Shown: positions 48,847-56,067 of the stretch, one piece after another
How the letters are laid out: every line of letters begins with the position of its first letter
Position numbering within the stretch: position 1 is the stretch's first letter
NCBI RefSeq assembly: GCF_006874465.1
Contig: NZ_VIRL01000010.1
Span: 62,001-126,000 of the forward strand
Length of the DNA: 64,000 bases
Direction of reading: 5' to 3'
Origin: Microbispora bryophytorum
Lineage (GTDB): Bacteria > Actinomycetota > Actinomycetes > Streptosporangiales > Streptosporangiaceae
Notes under the pieces: model-generated
The model's database searches: none
Told to the model about the DNA's origin: nothing
Seen by the model: the letters and a program-made list of their open reading frames with translations, nothing else
Program-made: the position numbers and the translations under genes

Positions 48847-50178
48847 TCAAACGCCGATTGCCACAGGCTCCATGATCTCGCGGTCCTGGTCGGCGTCGGA
48901 GCGGAAGTGCTTCGATTGGTGTGCGGCGATCAGGGTGATCAGAGCATTGGCGCCCATGAAGATGGCGATCGGCCACCAGTGTCCGGCGCCCGCGTACAGG
49001 GCCGTCGCTATCAGCGGTGCCAGGCCGCCGAGGATCGCGCCGGTGATTTCGCGGGCGAACGCGATGCCGGAATACCGGGTGGCGGCGGGGAAGAGCTCGG
49101 TCAGGAATGCGCCCTGCGCGGCCACACCGGTGGACGCCACACCCACCCAGCAGATGATCAGGCCGGCCGCGACGAGCCATGGGTTCCTGGTGTCGATGAG
49201 CAGGAACATCGGGACCGTCCAGACGATCCCGAAGCATGCGGCGAACATCAGGAGCTTGCGGCGACCGATCCGATCACCGAGTTTGCCGAAGTACGGCAGG
49301 AACGGGGACCCGACGAGGAATATCGCCGCGTTGATCGCGAGCCCGATTCCCGCGGCCATGCCGAGGTTGTTCGTCAAGTAGCTGAGCGCCCACACCTGGG
49401 GGATGTAGGTGAAGCCCGACAGCAGGAAGTTCGACCCCAGTGCGACCAGCAGTCGTCGCTTCTCGGTGGCCAGCAACGTCACGAGGGGGATCTTGTGGGC
49501 TGCTTCGCCCGCGGCCTCGTCGCCGGGTTGCCGGGTCTCCGTGACTCGGAGCCGCACGTAGAGACTGATGGCGAGAACAATGACGCTGGCCAGGAACGGG
49601 ATGCGCCAACCCCAGACGAGGAAGCCATCGCCGGTGAGGGCGTCGAGCGCGTTGAAGGTCAGCAGGCCGAGTGCGCTGCCCAGCCACAGGCCGACTCCGG
49701 ACCAGGAGGAGTAGAAACCCCGTCGCCCCGGGGTGGACGCCTCAGCCGAGAGGGTGATCGCGCCGGCGTACTCCGCCCCCGCCCCGAGACCCTGAATCAC
49801 CCGCAGCGCGACCAGCAGCACCGGCGCCAGCACTCCAGCAGTGGCGTAGGTCGGCAGAGTGCCGATCAGCGCCGTGCAGATACCCATGATCAGCAGTGTC
49901 GTGATCATGACGGGCTTGCGACCGATCCGGTCACCGAGATGGCCGAACACGATGCCGCCGATCGGCCGGGCGAAGTAGCCCACGGCGAATGTCGCGAACG
50001 CCGCGAGCAGGCCGGTCAGCTGGTTGTCAGCTCCGAAGAACTGATCCTTGAAGATCAGGGCCGCCGCCGCCCCGTAGAGCGCGAAGTCGTACCACTCGAT
50101 GAGCGTGCCGACGAGTGCGGCCCCCGCCGCACGGCGGGCCGTCCGCCGACCCGGCGTCGATGCGGTTCCGGTAGCCAC
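48847..50178 (-). CDS. MFS transporter, metabolite:H+ symporter (MHS) type
   Basis: 443 aa, 12 predicted membrane helices. MHS-family signatures: GTLIEWYDFALYG at the first helix, FARPIGGIVFGHLGDRIGRKP in loop 2-3, RVIQGLGAGAEYAGA in helix 4-5, and FGKLGDRIGRRK in loop 8-9. Family members import carboxylates, betaines or shikimate. Divergent from the catabolic genes and next to an IclR regulator, so it probably imports the substrate of the cluster. Confidence 0.9.
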   Translation of the reverse strand: MATGTASTPGRRTARRAAGAALVGTLIEWYDFALYGAAAALIFKDQFFGADNQLTGLLAAFATFAVGYFARPIGGIVFGHLGDRIGRKPVMITTLLIMGICTALIGTLPTYATAGVLAPVLLVALRVIQGLGAGAEYAGAITLSAEASTPGRRGFYSSWSGVGLWLGSALGLLTFNALDALTGDGFLVWGWRIPFLASVIVLAISLYVRLRVTETRQPGDEAAGEAAHKIPLVTLLATEKRRLLVALGSNFLLSGFTYIPQVWALSYLTNNLGMAAGIGLAINAAIFLVGSPFLPYFGKLGDRIGRRKLLMFAACFGIVWTVPMFLLIDTRNPWLVAAGLIICWVGVASTGVAAQGAFLTELFPAATRYSGIAFAREITGAILGGLAPLIATALYAGAGHWWPIAIFMGANALITLIAAHQSKHFRSDADQDREIMEPVAIGV

Positions 50179-50342: not shown

Positions 50343-51146
50343 CTAGAGGTGCGGATCCAGCAGCCGGCGAATGCTCGGCTCACTCAGCCGAGGGGCGACT
50401 TCGCGCAGATCCTCGCGTAGCACGCCCGCCTCGACGGCCATCCGCTCCGCGATGGCGGCGATACGCTCCGGCCCCATCCGAGTCTCGACGGCGGCGACGC
50501 TGAGCGAGGCGATGGGCAGACCGTCCTCGGCCAGCACGGGGACGCCGACACCGACCGCACCAGGCACGATACCGCCGTTGTTCACCGTGTAACCGCGCTC
50601 ACGTGCCGTACGCGCGGCCTGCAGCACAGACGCGGCGTCCGGCCGCGGATAGCGCGAGCTGGAAGGTGAGCTGGCCAGGACCGCCTCGATCTCGTCGTCC
50701 GGCAGCCAGGCGAGCAACGCCATCGCGCCGGCGCCGACTCCGAGGGGGCGCCTGTCGCCGACCTGCAAGGTCAGGGTGCGAATCGGGAAGCTGCCGAGCA
50801 CGCGGTCCACACAGAGCGATTCGATGCCGCTCCGGGTGGACAGGAAAACCGTGTCGTGTGTCGTGCGCGCCAGCGCGGCCAACCGCGGCCCGGCTATGTC
50901 GACGATCCCGTGCCGGTTCAACGCCTCGGTGCCGAGACCGACGAGCTTGGGGCCGAGGTGGAATGAGCCGGCCTCGGTCTGCTCCAGCCAGCCGAGCTCG
51001 GTGAGCGTCGCGAGGATCCGGTGCACCGTGGTCTTCTGCAGGCCGGTCGCGGTCACGACATCCATCAGCCGCGCCCCTTCGGCGCCCCCGTTGGCCACGA
51101 CGTCGACGATCCCTGCCGCGCGCGTGACGCTGCGAACGCTCTCCAT
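50343..51146 (-). CDS. IclR-family transcriptional regulator
   Basis: 267 aa. N-terminal HTH ARLMDVVTATGLQKTTVHRILATL (~25-50) and C-terminal effector domain with TVFLSTRSGIESLCVDRV, LPDDEIEAVL, ARERGYTVNNGGIVPGAVGVGVPV and IASLSVAA. Divergent by 83 bp from the SHGG/TPP/SDR/amidase operon and upstream of the MHS transporter, hence the presumed regulator of both. GTTCCG half-sites occur in both flanking gaps (e.g. 50209, 50229, 51182, 51203). Confidence 0.9.
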   Translation of the reverse strand: MESVRSVTRAAGIVDVVANGGAEGARLMDVVTATGLQKTTVHRILATLTELGWLEQTEAGSFHLGPKLVGLGTEALNRHGIVDIAGPRLAALARTTHDTVFLSTRSGIESLCVDRVLGSFPIRTLTLQVGDRRPLGVGAGAMALLAWLPDDEIEAVLASSPSSSRYPRPDAASVLQAARTARERGYTVNNGGIVPGAVGVGVPVLAEDGLPIASLSVAAVETRMGPERIAAIAERMAVEAGVLREDLREVAPRLSEPSIRRLLDPHL

Positions 51147-51229
51147 GAGCGACTCCTTCCAATATCCAACAATTCTATCGCTGGTTCCGTCTGACAGTCC
51201 GTAGTTCCGACACGTGGTACGTTCACCCT

Positions 51230-52069
51230 ATGGATGACGGCTGCAATCAGGTGAACCCGTCGGCGGCCCTGATCGATCTTCGACCTGTCACCGTGCTTGA
51301 CAGCATTACCGAACTGCAAACGGCGGATCGTCACAAGGTCGCCGTCACGGGTTCCCACGGCGGGCTGGCCAGCGGACGGCATGCGCTCGCCCACGGTGTC
51401 GCGGCGGTGATCTTCAATGACGCCGGCGTCGGACTGAACGGCGCCGGCACACGATCCCTGGCGGACCTCGACCGTTGGGGAGTGCCGGCCGCCGTGGTAT
51501 CGCACCTTTCCGCTCGCATCGGCGACGGCCGGGACACCATGCGGTCGGGAGTCGTGTCCGCGTGCAACGGCACCGCCCAGGCGCTCGGAGTGCGGCCGGG
51601 CCACAGTTGCCTCGCCGCGGTGGCCGCACTCCGCACGTCAGCCGCTCACGCACAGGAGACGGATACGGCCGGCTTCGCCTCGGCGAGCGGTCAGGTCGGC
51701 CCTCACCACGTGGTCATCCTCGACTCGGCTTCACTGATCGGGCCGGATGCCGCGGGCAGCGTGGCGGTGACCGGATCGCATGGGGGGCTGCCGGGGCGTC
51801 GAGCCGCCAGAGCGCTCAAGCACCCGGCTCGCTTCGCCGCCTTCAACGACGCGGGCGTCGGAAAGGACCAGGCCGGCATCGCGCGGCTTGAGGTGCTCGA
51901 CTCTCAGGGCGTTCCCGCGGTGACGGTTCGCCACGACAGTGCCGAGATCGGCGACGGGTCGTCGACTCTGCGCTCCGGAGTCGTCTCGTACGCCAACAGC
52001 CTCGCCATTCGAAGCGGTGCGCGGGCCGGCGCATCGCTGATCGAAGTGATCCGCCGGCTGCCGGAATAA
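51230..52069 (+). CDS. Internally duplicated protein of unknown function (SHGG/NDAGVG repeats)
   Basis: 279 aa consisting of two homologous ~120-residue halves (about 15-135 and 155-278). Each half runs through the same ordered motifs: VAVTGSHGGL; (I/A)FNDAGVG; LD-x-x-GVPA-x-x-V-x-H-x-SA-x-IGDG; T-(M/L)-RSGVVS. No signal peptide or membrane segment, so cytoplasmic. The conserved His, Asn-Asp and His/Asp residues look like paired active sites of a pseudo-symmetric enzyme. I do not recognise the family. First gene of an operon with a TPP enzyme, SDR and amidase; 24 bp from the next gene. Confidence 0.85.
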   Translation: MDDGCNQVNPSAALIDLRPVTVLDSITELQTADRHKVAVTGSHGGLASGRHALAHGVAAVIFNDAGVGLNGAGTRSLADLDRWGVPAAVVSHLSARIGDGRDTMRSGVVSACNGTAQALGVRPGHSCLAAVAALRTSAAHAQETDTAGFASASGQVGPHHVVILDSASLIGPDAAGSVAVTGSHGGLPGRRAARALKHPARFAAFNDAGVGKDQAGIARLEVLDSQGVPAVTVRHDSAEIGDGSSTLRSGVVSYANSLAIRSGARAGASLIEVIRRLPE

Positions 52070-52093: not shown

Positions 52094-53830
52094 ATGATCA
52101 TCAATAGCCAGGAGTCCACAAGGATCTGTTCCGGTGGCCGGGCGATCGCCGAGATGATCAAGCTCTACGAGCCCGGGCCGATATTCGGCATGGGCGGGTT
52201 CCAGATGCTCCCGTTCTACGAGGGGGCGCGTCAGCTCGGGATGCGTCACATCCTGATCAACGATGAGCGAGCCGGTGCGTTCGCCGCCGACGCCTACGCC
52301 AGGGCGACCGGGCGACCCGGATTGTGCGACGCCACGCTGGGGCCCGGCGCCACCAACCTGGTGACCGCGCTGGTCGAGTCGTTGAACGCGGGAATCCCGA
52401 TCGTCGCCTTGGTCGGCGACACCCATCGTTCCCACTCCTGGAAGAACATGACCCAGGAGACGCGGCAGGAGGAGCTGCTGCGACCGGCGGTGAAGGAGTA
52501 CCTGCGGGTCGAGGACATCGCCCGCATTCCGGAGTTGGTGCGCCGAGCGTTCTCAGTCGCCACGTCGGGCCGGCCCGGCCCGGTCGTCCTGGCCGTTCCG
52601 GAGGACATCGCGCACGCCGAGCATCACTTCGCCGCCGCCGACTTCTGGGCCGATCAGCGTGCGACGCGCGTCCCGTCCACCCGGTCCAGCCCCGCGCCCG
52701 ACGCCGTACAGGACGCTGTCGCTGTGCTCGAGGGCGCACAGCGGCCGGTGATCCTCGCCGGCGGAGGCGTGCACCTGGCCGACGCGTACGCCGAGCTCGC
52801 CGCTCTCGCCGAAACGCTCAACGCGCCGGTCGCGCACACCCTCAGCGGAAAGGGCGCGCTCTCCTGTCTCGACGACCGGTCGATCGGACTGTTCGGACGG
52901 TACAGCCGATTCGCCAACGAGATCATCGACTCGGCCGACGCGCTGGTCGTCGTCGGGAGCAAGCTGGGTGAGATCGCCACCAAGCGCTACACGATTCCAC
53001 GGGCAGGGATCCCGATCGTGCACCTGGACAACACCGCCGAGGAACTCGGCCGCTACACCAAGATCGATGTCGCCCTCTGGGGAGACGCCAAGGAGGGTCT
53101 GAGCCGTCTCCACGAGGCGCTGTCGGACCGCGTCCCCCCGCAGCGGACGTCGTTCTGGCAGGAGATCGCCGAGCGGCGCACGGCCTGGGAGCGGGAGGCG
53201 GAACCGCGGTACGCCTCCGCGGACAGTCCGGTTCACATGGCCCGGCTGATCAACGAGATGAACACCTTGCTGCCGCCTGAGGCGGTGGTGGTGGCGGACG
53301 GCGGTTTCGCCAGTCACTGGACCGGACTGTTGTACAACACCAAGCAGGCCGGTCGCGGCTACATCAGCGACCGCGGGTTCGCCTCGATCGGCTATGGGCT
53401 GCCCGGAGCGATGGGCGCCTTCCTGGCGGGCCGGTCGCCGGTGATCGGCCTCACCGGAGACGGTGGGTTCAACATGACGGTCGGGGAGTTGGAGACGGCG
53501 GTCCGGGAGAAGATGGAGTTCGTTCTCCTGGTCGTGAACAACGCCGCTTCGGGATACGTCAAGGCGCTGCAACACGCGGTGTACGGACCTGGCAGCTACG
53601 AGTCGAGCGACCTGAGCGAGCTGAACTACGCACGGATCGCGGAGGCGTACGGTTGCCTCGGGATCCGGGTGGACGACCCTGGTCAGCTCGCCGGCGCGCT
53701 CACCCGAGCCCTCGCCGAACGCGGACGGCCGGTCGTGATCGATGTCGCGGTGACTCGGGATCCGGCGCAAATGCTCCCTGCCGTCGACAGCCGGACGCTC
53801 AAGGTGGAAGCCGGGGACAGACCGGCCTGA
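52094..53830 (+). CDS. Thiamine-diphosphate enzyme, acetolactate-synthase-like
   Basis: 578 aa, three-domain TPP fold. The N-terminal PYR domain has the catalytic-Glu segment ILINDERAGAFAADAYARATG and LGPGATNLVTALVESLNAGIP. The middle FAD/NAD-like domain contains RPVILAGGGVHLADAY. The C-terminal PP domain has GDGGFNMTVGELETAVREK then NNAASGY, the ThDP/Mg site. True AHAS carries HEQ at the Glu segment and a regulatory subunit gene nearby; neither is seen, so a decarboxylase or carboligase acting on a 2-oxo acid is more likely. Operon context: unknown catabolic cluster. Confidence 0.85.
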   Translation: MIINSQESTRICSGGRAIAEMIKLYEPGPIFGMGGFQMLPFYEGARQLGMRHILINDERAGAFAADAYARATGRPGLCDATLGPGATNLVTALVESLNAGIPIVALVGDTHRSHSWKNMTQETRQEELLRPAVKEYLRVEDIARIPELVRRAFSVATSGRPGPVVLAVPEDIAHAEHHFAAADFWADQRATRVPSTRSSPAPDAVQDAVAVLEGAQRPVILAGGGVHLADAYAELAALAETLNAPVAHTLSGKGALSCLDDRSIGLFGRYSRFANEIIDSADALVVVGSKLGEIATKRYTIPRAGIPIVHLDNTAEELGRYTKIDVALWGDAKEGLSRLHEALSDRVPPQRTSFWQEIAERRTAWEREAEPRYASADSPVHMARLINEMNTLLPPEAVVVADGGFASHWTGLLYNTKQAGRGYISDRGFASIGYGLPGAMGAFLAGRSPVIGLTGDGGFNMTVGELETAVREKMEFVLLVVNNAASGYVKALQHAVYGPGSYESSDLSELNYARIAEAYGCLGIRVDDPGQLAGALTRALAERGRPVVIDVAVTRDPAQMLPAVDSRTLKVEAGDRPA

Positions 53831-53868
53831 TGAGTGACGCGTCAAAGGAGCCGCAAGGAGGATCATGA
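53830..53868 (+). CDS. 12-codon mini-ORF linking TPP and SDR genes
   Basis: ATG 53830 overlaps the TPP stop (TGATG) and the frame ends in a TGA that overlaps the SDR ATG (ATGATG). It contains the AAGGAGGATC that serves the SDR gene. It probably keeps ribosomes engaged across the gap; the 12-residue product is unlikely to have its own role. Confidence 0.3.
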   Translation: MSDASKEPQGGS

Positions 53869-54719
53869 TGGGACCGAACCAGCTCCGTGAGGTCGCGCAG
53901 GTGACCGGGCCGGGCGGCCGGCTGCAGGACCGTGTTGTCGTCGTCACCGGCGCCGGCGCGCTCGGCGACGAGATCGGGAACGGGCGCGCGATCGCGATGC
54001 TCGCCGCCTTCGAAGGCGCCTCGGTAGTGATCGTCGACCGGGACGCGGCGTCGGCCCGGCGCACGCGCGACCTCCTGGGTGAGGAGTACGCCGATCGGAC
54101 GCTGGTCGTCCGTGCCGACACCACGTCGGTGGAAGACACCCGCAGGGTCGCCGAGCAGGCCTCCGAGAGGTTCGGCAGAGTCGACGGACTGGTGAACACC
54201 GTCGGTGTCATAGGTGCGCCCGGCACCGCGGCCGACGTCGACCCCGCCGAATGGGCACGTGGGCTGGAGATCAACATCACCTCCACGATGCTGATGAGCA
54301 AGGCCTGCCTGCCTGACCTGACGCGCGGCGGTGGAGCGATCGTGAACATCGCTTCGACCGCGGCCCTTCGTGGCGGCCACCCGTTCCTTCTCTACCCGAC
54401 GTCCAAGGGCGCCCTGATCAACATGACCAGGGCGATGGCGGCGCACCATGGGCGGGCCGGGGTCCGCGTGAACGCGGTGGCGCCGGGGCTGGTCGAAACA
54501 CCGATGGTCGACGCCGCGTCGATGACCGAGGAGTATCGCGAAACGCGCCGGGCGGCGTCACTGCTGGGCACCGCGGGAACCGGATGGGACGTCGCGCGGG
54601 CAGTCGTCTTCTTGCTCAGTGAGGACGCCCGATGGATCACCGGAGTGACGATACCCGTCGACGCAGGATTGACCGCGGCGGCCACCGACCTGCCGCTGGA
54701 CGTCGAACCGACCAATTGA
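53865..54719 (+). CDS. SDR-family NAD(P)-dependent dehydrogenase
   Basis: 284 aa. Cofactor motif VVVVTGAGALGDEIGNGRA (a TGxxxxGxG variant with an extra residue), Asp at the end of beta-2 (VIVDRD, NAD preference), N-x-V-G element, catalytic IASTAAL Ser and YPTSK Tyr/Lys, and PGLVETPM. Two adjacent ATGs at 53865 and 53868 are served by AAGGAGGATC. Oxidises or reduces a hydroxyl intermediate of the cluster (inferred). Confidence 0.9.
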   Translation: MMGPNQLREVAQVTGPGGRLQDRVVVVTGAGALGDEIGNGRAIAMLAAFEGASVVIVDRDAASARRTRDLLGEEYADRTLVVRADTTSVEDTRRVAEQASERFGRVDGLVNTVGVIGAPGTAADVDPAEWARGLEINITSTMLMSKACLPDLTRGGGAIVNIASTAALRGGHPFLLYPTSKGALINMTRAMAAHHGRAGVRVNAVAPGLVETPMVDAASMTEEYRETRRAASLLGTAGTGWDVARAVVFLLSEDARWITGVTIPVDAGLTAAATDLPLDVEPTN

Positions 54720-54738: not shown

Positions 54739-56067
54739 TTGACGACGAAACAGGACCGGATCGCGGCTCAGTTGGATGGGATCGACCGGCTCAACGGTTC
54801 CTACCATGCGGTGATCAGCAAGCTGCCCGAAGCAGCTGTCGTCGCAGCGGAGCTGGACAGGCCCGGCAGCTCCCCCGGACCTTTGGCCGGGCTCTCGGTG
54901 GGAGTCAAGGACGTGATCGCGACCGCCGGGCATCCGACCACGATGGGCTCGGCGATGTATCGCGATCACGTTCCGGATGCCGACGCCGAGGTGGTGGCAC
55001 GCATCAGGGCGGCCGGCGGGGTGGTTCTCGCCAAGACGAATCTCTCGGAGTTCGCCATGGGCGCCACGTCGCACAACGCGCACTACGGCAACGTCGGCAA
55101 CGCGTGGAATCCAGCGCGTGTTGCCGGCGGCTCGAGCGGAGGGTCGGCCGCGGCCGTGGCTCTCGGACTGTGTGACGCCGCGCTCGGCACGGACACGGGC
55201 GGGTCGATCGTGATCCCTGCGGCTCTGAACGGGTTGACGGGTCTGCGCCCGAGCCTCGGCCTGGTCTCCAACCGAGGCGTCTTCCCCGTCAGCAGCAACT
55301 TCGACACCACCGGCCCGATCGCCCGCTCCGTGGGTCAGGTGCGCCGTCTTCTCCAGGTCATCGCCGGATGGGACCCGGATGACCCCGACCAGCCGCCGAC
55401 GGCCCGTGAGTGGGACGCCGGGCACAAGGAGACCCGCCTGCCCGGGCTTCGCATCGGGGTACCACGCGGCCACTTCGTCGCCGAAGAGCCGGAGATCGCG
55501 GCCCGGTTCGAGGAGGCGCTCGGCGTTCTCGCCGGGCAGGGCGCCAAGCTGGTCGAACTCGAACTGGCCGCCGCGTCCGAAGCGCTGCCGAACATGGCCA
55601 CCCAGATGTTCACCGACTTCTACGGTGTGCACGCCGAGCGATTCACCACGCACCCCGAGCAGTATGGTTCCGACCTGACTCACAGGTTGCGGCTGGGTGG
55701 CGCGACGACCGGCGTCGGATACTCCACGAGCAGGCGCTGGACCGAGCGCTGGCGACATTCACTGGCCCTGACATTCGAGCAGGTGGACGTGATCGTCACC
55801 CCGGCCACGTCGATCAGCGCGCCGCTGATCGACGATTCGGCGATGGCCACGACCACGCCACTGCTGACGCGCTTCACCCACCCCTGGTGCCTGTCGCTCG
55901 GTCCGACGCTGAGCGTGCCCATCGGTGCGGGTCGCCACAGCCCGGTCGGCATGTTGATCACGGGCCCGGCCTTCGGCGAACGATTGGTGCTCGAGGTGGG
56001 CGATGCGTACCAGTCGATGACCGAATGGCACCACCACACGCCGGAGGCGCGCATCGACATCCCGTGA
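54739..56067 (+). CDS. Amidase-signature family hydrolase
   Basis: 442 aa from TTG 54739 (GGAGGGCAGG upstream). Ser-cisSer-Lys triad: Lys in SVGVKDVIATAG, cis-Ser in GGSSGGSAAAVA, nucleophile Ser in DTGGSIVIPAALNGLTGLRPS. The usual Arg in GGSxRxPA is Val here. Hydrolyses a carboxamide or ureide to acid and ammonia; last gene of the cluster and possibly its entry or terminal step. Confidence 0.9.
   Translation: MTTKQDRIAAQLDGIDRLNGSYHAVISKLPEAAVVAAELDRPGSSPGPLAGLSVGVKDVIATAGHPTTMGSAMYRDHVPDADAEVVARIRAAGGVVLAKTNLSEFAMGATSHNAHYGNVGNAWNPARVAGGSSGGSAAAVALGLCDAALGTDTGGSIVIPAALNGLTGLRPSLGLVSNRGVFPVSSNFDTTGPIARSVGQVRRLLQVIAGWDPDDPDQPPTAREWDAGHKETRLPGLRIGVPRGHFVAEEPEIAARFEEALGVLAGQGAKLVELELAAASEALPNMATQMFTDFYGVHAERFTTHPEQYGSDLTHRLRLGGATTGVGYSTSRRWTERWRHSLALTFEQVDVIVTPATSISAPLIDDSAMATTTPLLTRFTHPWCLSLGPTLSVPIGAGRHSPVGMLITGPAFGERLVLEVGDAYQSMTEWHHHTPEARIDIP

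Follow-up and report, generated by a model that had tools for sequence, protein, structure and literature searches.

A duplicated two-domain protein of an unnamed family, with a predicted TA1206/DUF1805 fold, recurs beside thiamine diphosphate-dependent enzymes

In this study, we analysed the gene at 51230-52069 of a 64,000-nucleotide stretch of Microbispora bryophytorum DNA (contig NZ_VIRL01000010.1, positions 62,001 to 126,000; hereafter the window), whose product belongs to a real family that carries no name. The protein is internally duplicated, the predicted structures of its halves have the fold of TA1206, the solved member of DUF1805, and the family is enriched next to thiamine diphosphate (ThDP)-dependent enzymes. 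The fold assignment is good and the association with ThDP enzymes is clear.

Internal duplication and fold

The open reading frame (ORF) at 51230-52069 (+) runs from an ATG start and encodes a two-domain protein of 279 amino acids (AlphaFold model: pLDDT 90.5, pTM 0.86). An earlier note on this DNA had proposed that the two halves share the same ordered motifs and are about half identical, and this is what we find: local alignment of the halves scores 224, with 56 of 115 aligned positions identical (48.7%), against a mean of 37.7 (SD 6.6, maximum 66) when the C-terminal half is shuffled 2000 times, and blastp aligns them at 47.9% identity over 117 columns (E 1.8e-25). The first half (approximately residues 19-134; 51284-51631, +) contains D24-S25, S42-H43-G44-G45, N63-D64-A65-G66-x-G68, S94-A95-R96-I97-G98-D99 and S110-x-x-N113, and the second (residues 147-279; 51668-52066, +) contains D165-S166, S183-H184-G185-G186, N206-D207-A208-G209-x-G211-K212, S237-A238-E239-I240-G241-D242 and S253-x-x-N256. 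The internal duplication is real, and it is present in all nine relatives on genome contigs, where its absence from close homologues would have spoken against the earlier note. Across the family, identity between first and second halves ranges from 30 to 52% (median 40%) in 51 pairs, made up of 48 two-half proteins and three adjacent split pairs with truncated and near-duplicate rows omitted. The reading frame itself has codon-position GC contents of 0.74, 0.56 and 0.79, a high-GC coding bias resembling that of neighbouring genes. Antisense ORFs overlapping it were discarded by a simple codon-usage gene caller, which was trained on annotated plasmid genes and agrees with the annotation of its training locus, L025, except at several start sites, an agreement that is not an independent test.

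The fold of the halves is recognisable. Searches with the window protein gave nothing significant in Pfam (best IMS, E 0.042, 14.2 bits), NCBIfam (best E 0.19) or the PDB sequences (best E 0.29). The models of its halves have the fold of TA1206 (PDB 1qw2). TA1206 represents DUF1805 (Pfam PF08827, COG3377), of which we take B. subtilis YunC to be a member. The window protein has no match to DUF1805 at E <= 1 and does not reach its gathering cut-off (29.5 bits), while nine of ten scanned relatives match at E <= 1 and one (L025, 32.3 bits) exceeds the cut-off. Alignment of the family with DUF1805 by hhalign gave a probability of 41% across 34 columns (E 3e-4) and, in another run, of 54% across 67 columns (E 1e-4); the E values are those of single comparisons, and DUF1805 was represented by only five sequences. 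Compared with DUF1805, the family has domains larger by about 30 residues, in most cases two to a protein, and is distinguished by its SHGG and NDAGVG motifs; conversely, a Cys-Gly invariant in all five aligned DUF1805 sequences is lacking from the window family. The description of the family as unrecognised therefore stands as far as a name or a characterised relative is concerned, since neither sequence, profile nor structure searches matched the halves to a characterised enzyme family, but not as regards the fold. One DUF1805 gene (L167:4941-5216) lies on an Acidovorax conjugative plasmid between PAS-domain and ATP-binding genes, with a response regulator nearby.

Several other resemblances were considered. 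Y-family DNA polymerases (Pfam IMS) have in common with the family a strand-helix piece that aligns over 26-65 columns with identities of about 12-39%. IMS matches at E <= 5 occur in 30 of 42 members, and five of ten scanned relatives (L104, L030, L157, L101 and L025), but not the window protein, exceed the IMS cut-off (23.2 bits) through a short stretch. A PDB search with a 42-row profile likewise brought up 39 sequences, almost all of them Y-family polymerases, which aligned over 33-43 residues with E values of 0.012-0.6. The best IMS stretches are 29-38 residues long and fall at roughly positions 29-63 of the 148-position profile; the match is confined to the beginning of the profile and the remaining polymerase is absent. 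Because a single strand-helix is all that is in common, we reject kinship with these polymerases and regard the likeness as local, not as shared function. The strand-helix that ends each half (window approximately 51530-51620 and 51960-52060, and in relatives) resembles a piece near the start of both Y-family polymerases and DUF1805, possibly as an old shared fragment or by convergence. DepH, the best match of a PDB search with a 14-row single-domain profile (E 0.1), was also rejected. RPH (5fbt) and the pyruvate kinase C-terminal domain (3t05), which we take to be swivelling phosphohistidine-type domains, and aconitase X (7cnr) ranked level with unrelated Rossmann folds, and no sequence link to any of the three was found.

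We claim neither one nor several duplications in the history of the family, because a careful tree of 51 chosen halves leaves the first halves without resolution and the approximately unbiased test does not reject a topology that unites all 21 of them in a single clade (p 0.121). Of the 16 main second halves, 13 fall into one clade in that tree (support 100/96), which excludes those of L025, L026 and L154; the first half of the window protein branches separately. In L103-L107, the grouping of first with second halves receives 94/84 and is not starred. In a quick tree, the halves of L103, L107 and L108 group together, as do those of L145; this tree and the half-identity survey left out L116, L121, L119, L120, L087, L118 and L030 (truncated or near-duplicate) and L075, L081, L100 and L114 (start-truncated calls).

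Distribution, architectures and conserved residues

Sequence searches show the family to be widespread: relatives occur in Actinomycetota, Alpha- and Gammaproteobacteria, a Desulfovibrionaceae metagenome-assembled genome (MAG) and its phylum, and haloarchaea. The window genome has a single copy. Because relatives are found in only 9 of the 345 genomes searched in its order (the window genome counted) and in none of the 14 genomes listed for the same genus, the gene at 51230-52069 looks accessory. Elsewhere, relatives are carried by 8 of the 346 genomes searched in the phylum of the window (two marginal at E 9e-4), 35 of 397 in the order of a Nitratireductor genome, 3 of 274 in the class of a Granulosicoccaceae MAG and 7 of 148 in the phylum of the Desulfovibrionaceae MAG; these counts take in the centre genomes as well as a handful of weak matches. 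Thirteen plasmid records, including haloarchaea, Rhodococcus and Rhizobium, contain relatives, annotated as hypothetical protein in 12 and not at all in one. Among 62 candidate stretches of viral contigs, a search with two short patterns found no relative.

A half-domain profile detects two domains in most called members, and single-half genes also occur, both alone (174, 134 and 133 amino acids in L095-L097; 132-139 amino acids in five loci, L146-L150, from the search of the Desulfovibrionaceae phylum) and as adjacent pairs (L098, L105 and L106). These single, paired and two-domain forms make the family a good case for the evolution of a homodimer into a two-domain protein. In L106 (8381-9832), the second half of the split pair continues in frame, with no stop, into a complete Dak1 (dihydroxyacetone kinase) domain at residues 171-481 of 484, while in its relatives L103 and L105 Dak1 is a separate neighbouring gene. 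From its sequence this is likely a fusion, although not certainly, because the kinase may instead begin at a GTG close to the boundary.

Positions kept in at least 84% of 107 halves (rows with truncated starts omitted) include, in first/second-half numbering, D24/165, S42/183, H43/184, D64/207, A65/208, G66/209, G68/211, G73/216, I97/240, G107/250, S110/253, N113/256, A116/259, G120/263 and G124/267. The conserved columns are mainly Gly and Ala, plus Asp, Ser, His and Asn, a pattern that would fit a binding or active site and is no proof of one. No Cys appears among the columns at least 60% conserved in these halves, and none of the Lys positions is shared by all of them; every one of the 14 single or split halves has a Lys after NDAGxG, but overall this Lys falls below 60%, and the window protein has it only in the second half (K212). 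Despite replacement of His43 in 11 of 47 first halves, neither half looks, from its residues, like a dead pseudo-domain.

Genomic neighbourhoods

We surveyed 75 family loci in stretches of up to 17 kb, some ended by contig ends and several from close relatives, so that they are not independent; neighbours were counted by blastp at E <= 1e-15 to chosen representatives. L116, in which the family gene was uncalled, was dropped, and family positions in L076, L079, L085, L117, L151 and L152 came from genome searches. Of the 75 loci, 32 have a ThDP enzyme nearby, with E1 alpha/beta genes in 19, an acetolactate-synthase-like gene in 23 and both in 10. As a rough control, 14 whole genomes (approximately 81 Mb) contain 131 TPP_enzyme_N and 62 E1_dh matches (E <= 1e-10), or about 0.04 expected per 17-kb stretch, a figure obtained with criteria different from those of the 32/75 count, which includes relatives. 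Within the control genomes such a match lies no more than 8 kb from 13 of 16 family genes, a biased fraction since the genomes were chosen after their neighbourhoods had been seen. The family is enriched next to ThDP enzymes.

The acetolactate-synthase-like gene is only 0-73 bases away in the window, L005, L080, L086, L101, L102, L109-L113, L118 and L147. Acetolactate synthase has a regulatory partner, IlvN, and direct adjacency of this kind would suit a ligand-binding protein whose twin domains work on a partner protein, either activating or regulating the ThDP enzyme or serving as a cytosolic metabolite sensor, with no catalysis of its own. The DUF1805 gene between PAS-domain and ATP-binding genes, and a single-half gene bordered by ACT and DUF711 genes in L149, point the same way. 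We nevertheless consider such a role unlikely: in 43 of the 75 loci the examined stretch, sometimes truncated at a contig end, contains no ThDP enzyme, the E1 alpha/beta genes are mostly divergent from the family gene and not co-transcribed with it, and the presence of Asp64/207, Asn113/256 and Ser110/253 in both halves would suggest a chemical site over a mere ligand pocket. In L149 (6722-8775), the single-half gene stands directly ahead of the ACT-domain and DUF711 genes.

Other neighbours vary. Homologues of the short-chain dehydrogenase/reductase (SDR) occur near 22 loci and a TRAP permease near 16; elsewhere the family gene is found with a RuBisCO-like protein and a four-carbon acid sugar kinase, with DhaK, DhaL, BKACE and dihydroxyacid dehydratase, adjoining an FMN-dependent dehydrogenase (L091) and, in Rhodococcus, in acyl-CoA-type clusters. 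Such varied catabolic contexts with no single common partner, together with the patchy presence of the family in the order and genus, could reflect a substrate-binding, carrier or damage-control protein that binds or detoxifies reactive catabolic intermediates such as dicarbonyls. The ThDP enrichment and the in-frame reading into DhaK point instead to a defined place in a pathway, which makes a carrier rather improbable. A literature search that covered its sources in part found no activity reported for DUF1805; because of this, and because one DUF1805 gene sits beside signalling-type genes, both the regulatory and the carrier roles stay live.

The earlier note had tied the family to amide breakdown, and indeed amide-hydrolase types occur near 18 loci: amidases in 6 (the window counted), cyanuric acid amidohydrolase (AtzD) in 9 and hydantoinase-type genes in 3. 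That the protein is an amidohydrolase, or an accessory factor in the breakdown of amides or cyclic amides, is nonetheless very unlikely. The window-type amidase is near 6 of 75 loci as against 32 for ThDP enzymes, so the tie is not general; the window's association with amides is a local one. The Amidase and AtzD/TrzD (PF09663) models do not match the window protein at E <= 1, neither is one of the 11 Pfam families matched by 42 members, and the residue pattern offers neither a conserved Cys nor a Lys common to all halves. The AtzD gene is convergent to the family gene, and not co-transcribed with it, in a conserved block of nine loci (L078, L084, L086-L088 and L118-L121). Because these share flanking genes as far as the stretches reach, and because of the convergent orientation, we set the AtzD linkage aside as a functional sign and treat it as a neighbourhood inherited in one clade. 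Eight of the nine also have pyruvate dehydrogenase-type E1 alpha/beta genes, L086 and L118 have an acetolactate-synthase-like gene as well, and the AtzD copy in L118 scores above its NCBIfam cut-off.

Proposed function

An enzyme that handles a small carbonyl compound by acid-base chemistry is the simplest reading, because the domain probably works as a dimer, each half brings one polar set, and the neighbours make or break oxo-acids, acyloins and keto-sugars. The protein would be a soluble pseudo-dimeric enzyme derived from an ancestral homodimer. Each half offers a near-equal polar set (Asp-Ser, Ser-His-Gly-Gly, Asn-Asp, Ser-x-Arg/Glu-x-x-Asp and Ser-x-x-Asn), and because the sets are so alike there may be two equivalent acid-base sites or one site shared at the interface. 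The reaction would most likely be of an isomerase, epimerase/tautomerase or lactonase type, acting on a small oxo- or hydroxy-acid made or used by the ThDP enzyme or, in other clusters, by a kinase or aldolase. We favour this reading tentatively, as a fair way short of established. The bolder proposal, that the family is a new enzyme class in which a DUF1805-fold pseudo-dimer isomerises or hydrolyses the oxo-acid or acyloin intermediates of ThDP-dependent catabolism in a reaction not described before, is possible but doubtful; if true, it would supply the first activity for the DUF1805/COG3377 fold. Recurrent placement in catabolic clusters beside ThDP enzymes suggests that a step is missing from several degradation pathways that are still unmapped, and since DUF1805 apparently has no known function, operons whose chemistry is partly readable provide a practical route to the role of the fold.

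Gene block in the window

As the earlier note had recognised, the family gene leads an operon on the forward strand. After a gap of 24 bases follows an acetolactate-synthase-like ThDP-dependent enzyme (52094-53830; Pfam TPP_enzyme_N/M/C), of the same kind as that neighbouring the family gene in many loci and under the cut-off for every NCBIfam model among the matches listed (25 of 54); after a further 34 bases an SDR (53865-54719; Pfam and NCBIfam searches); and after 19 more an amidase-signature hydrolase with a TTG start (54739-56067; Pfam Amidase, 332 bits). Divergent from the block, 83 bases upstream of the family gene, an IclR-family regulator (50343-51146, -; Pfam search) likely controls it, and related IclR genes occur near 8 of the 75 loci, the window counted. 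Beyond it lies a metabolite/H+ symporter-like transporter of the major facilitator superfamily (48847-50178, -; Pfam MFS_1), which scores 387.5 bits against TIGR00883, under the cut-off of 443, and is a possible importer for the pathway. As a guess, the order in the window would be import, amide hydrolysis, SDR oxidation, the step of the family protein, and then C-C cleavage or decarboxylation by the ThDP enzyme. In the 83-base gap between the IclR gene and the family gene (51147-51229), GTTCCG is present twice.
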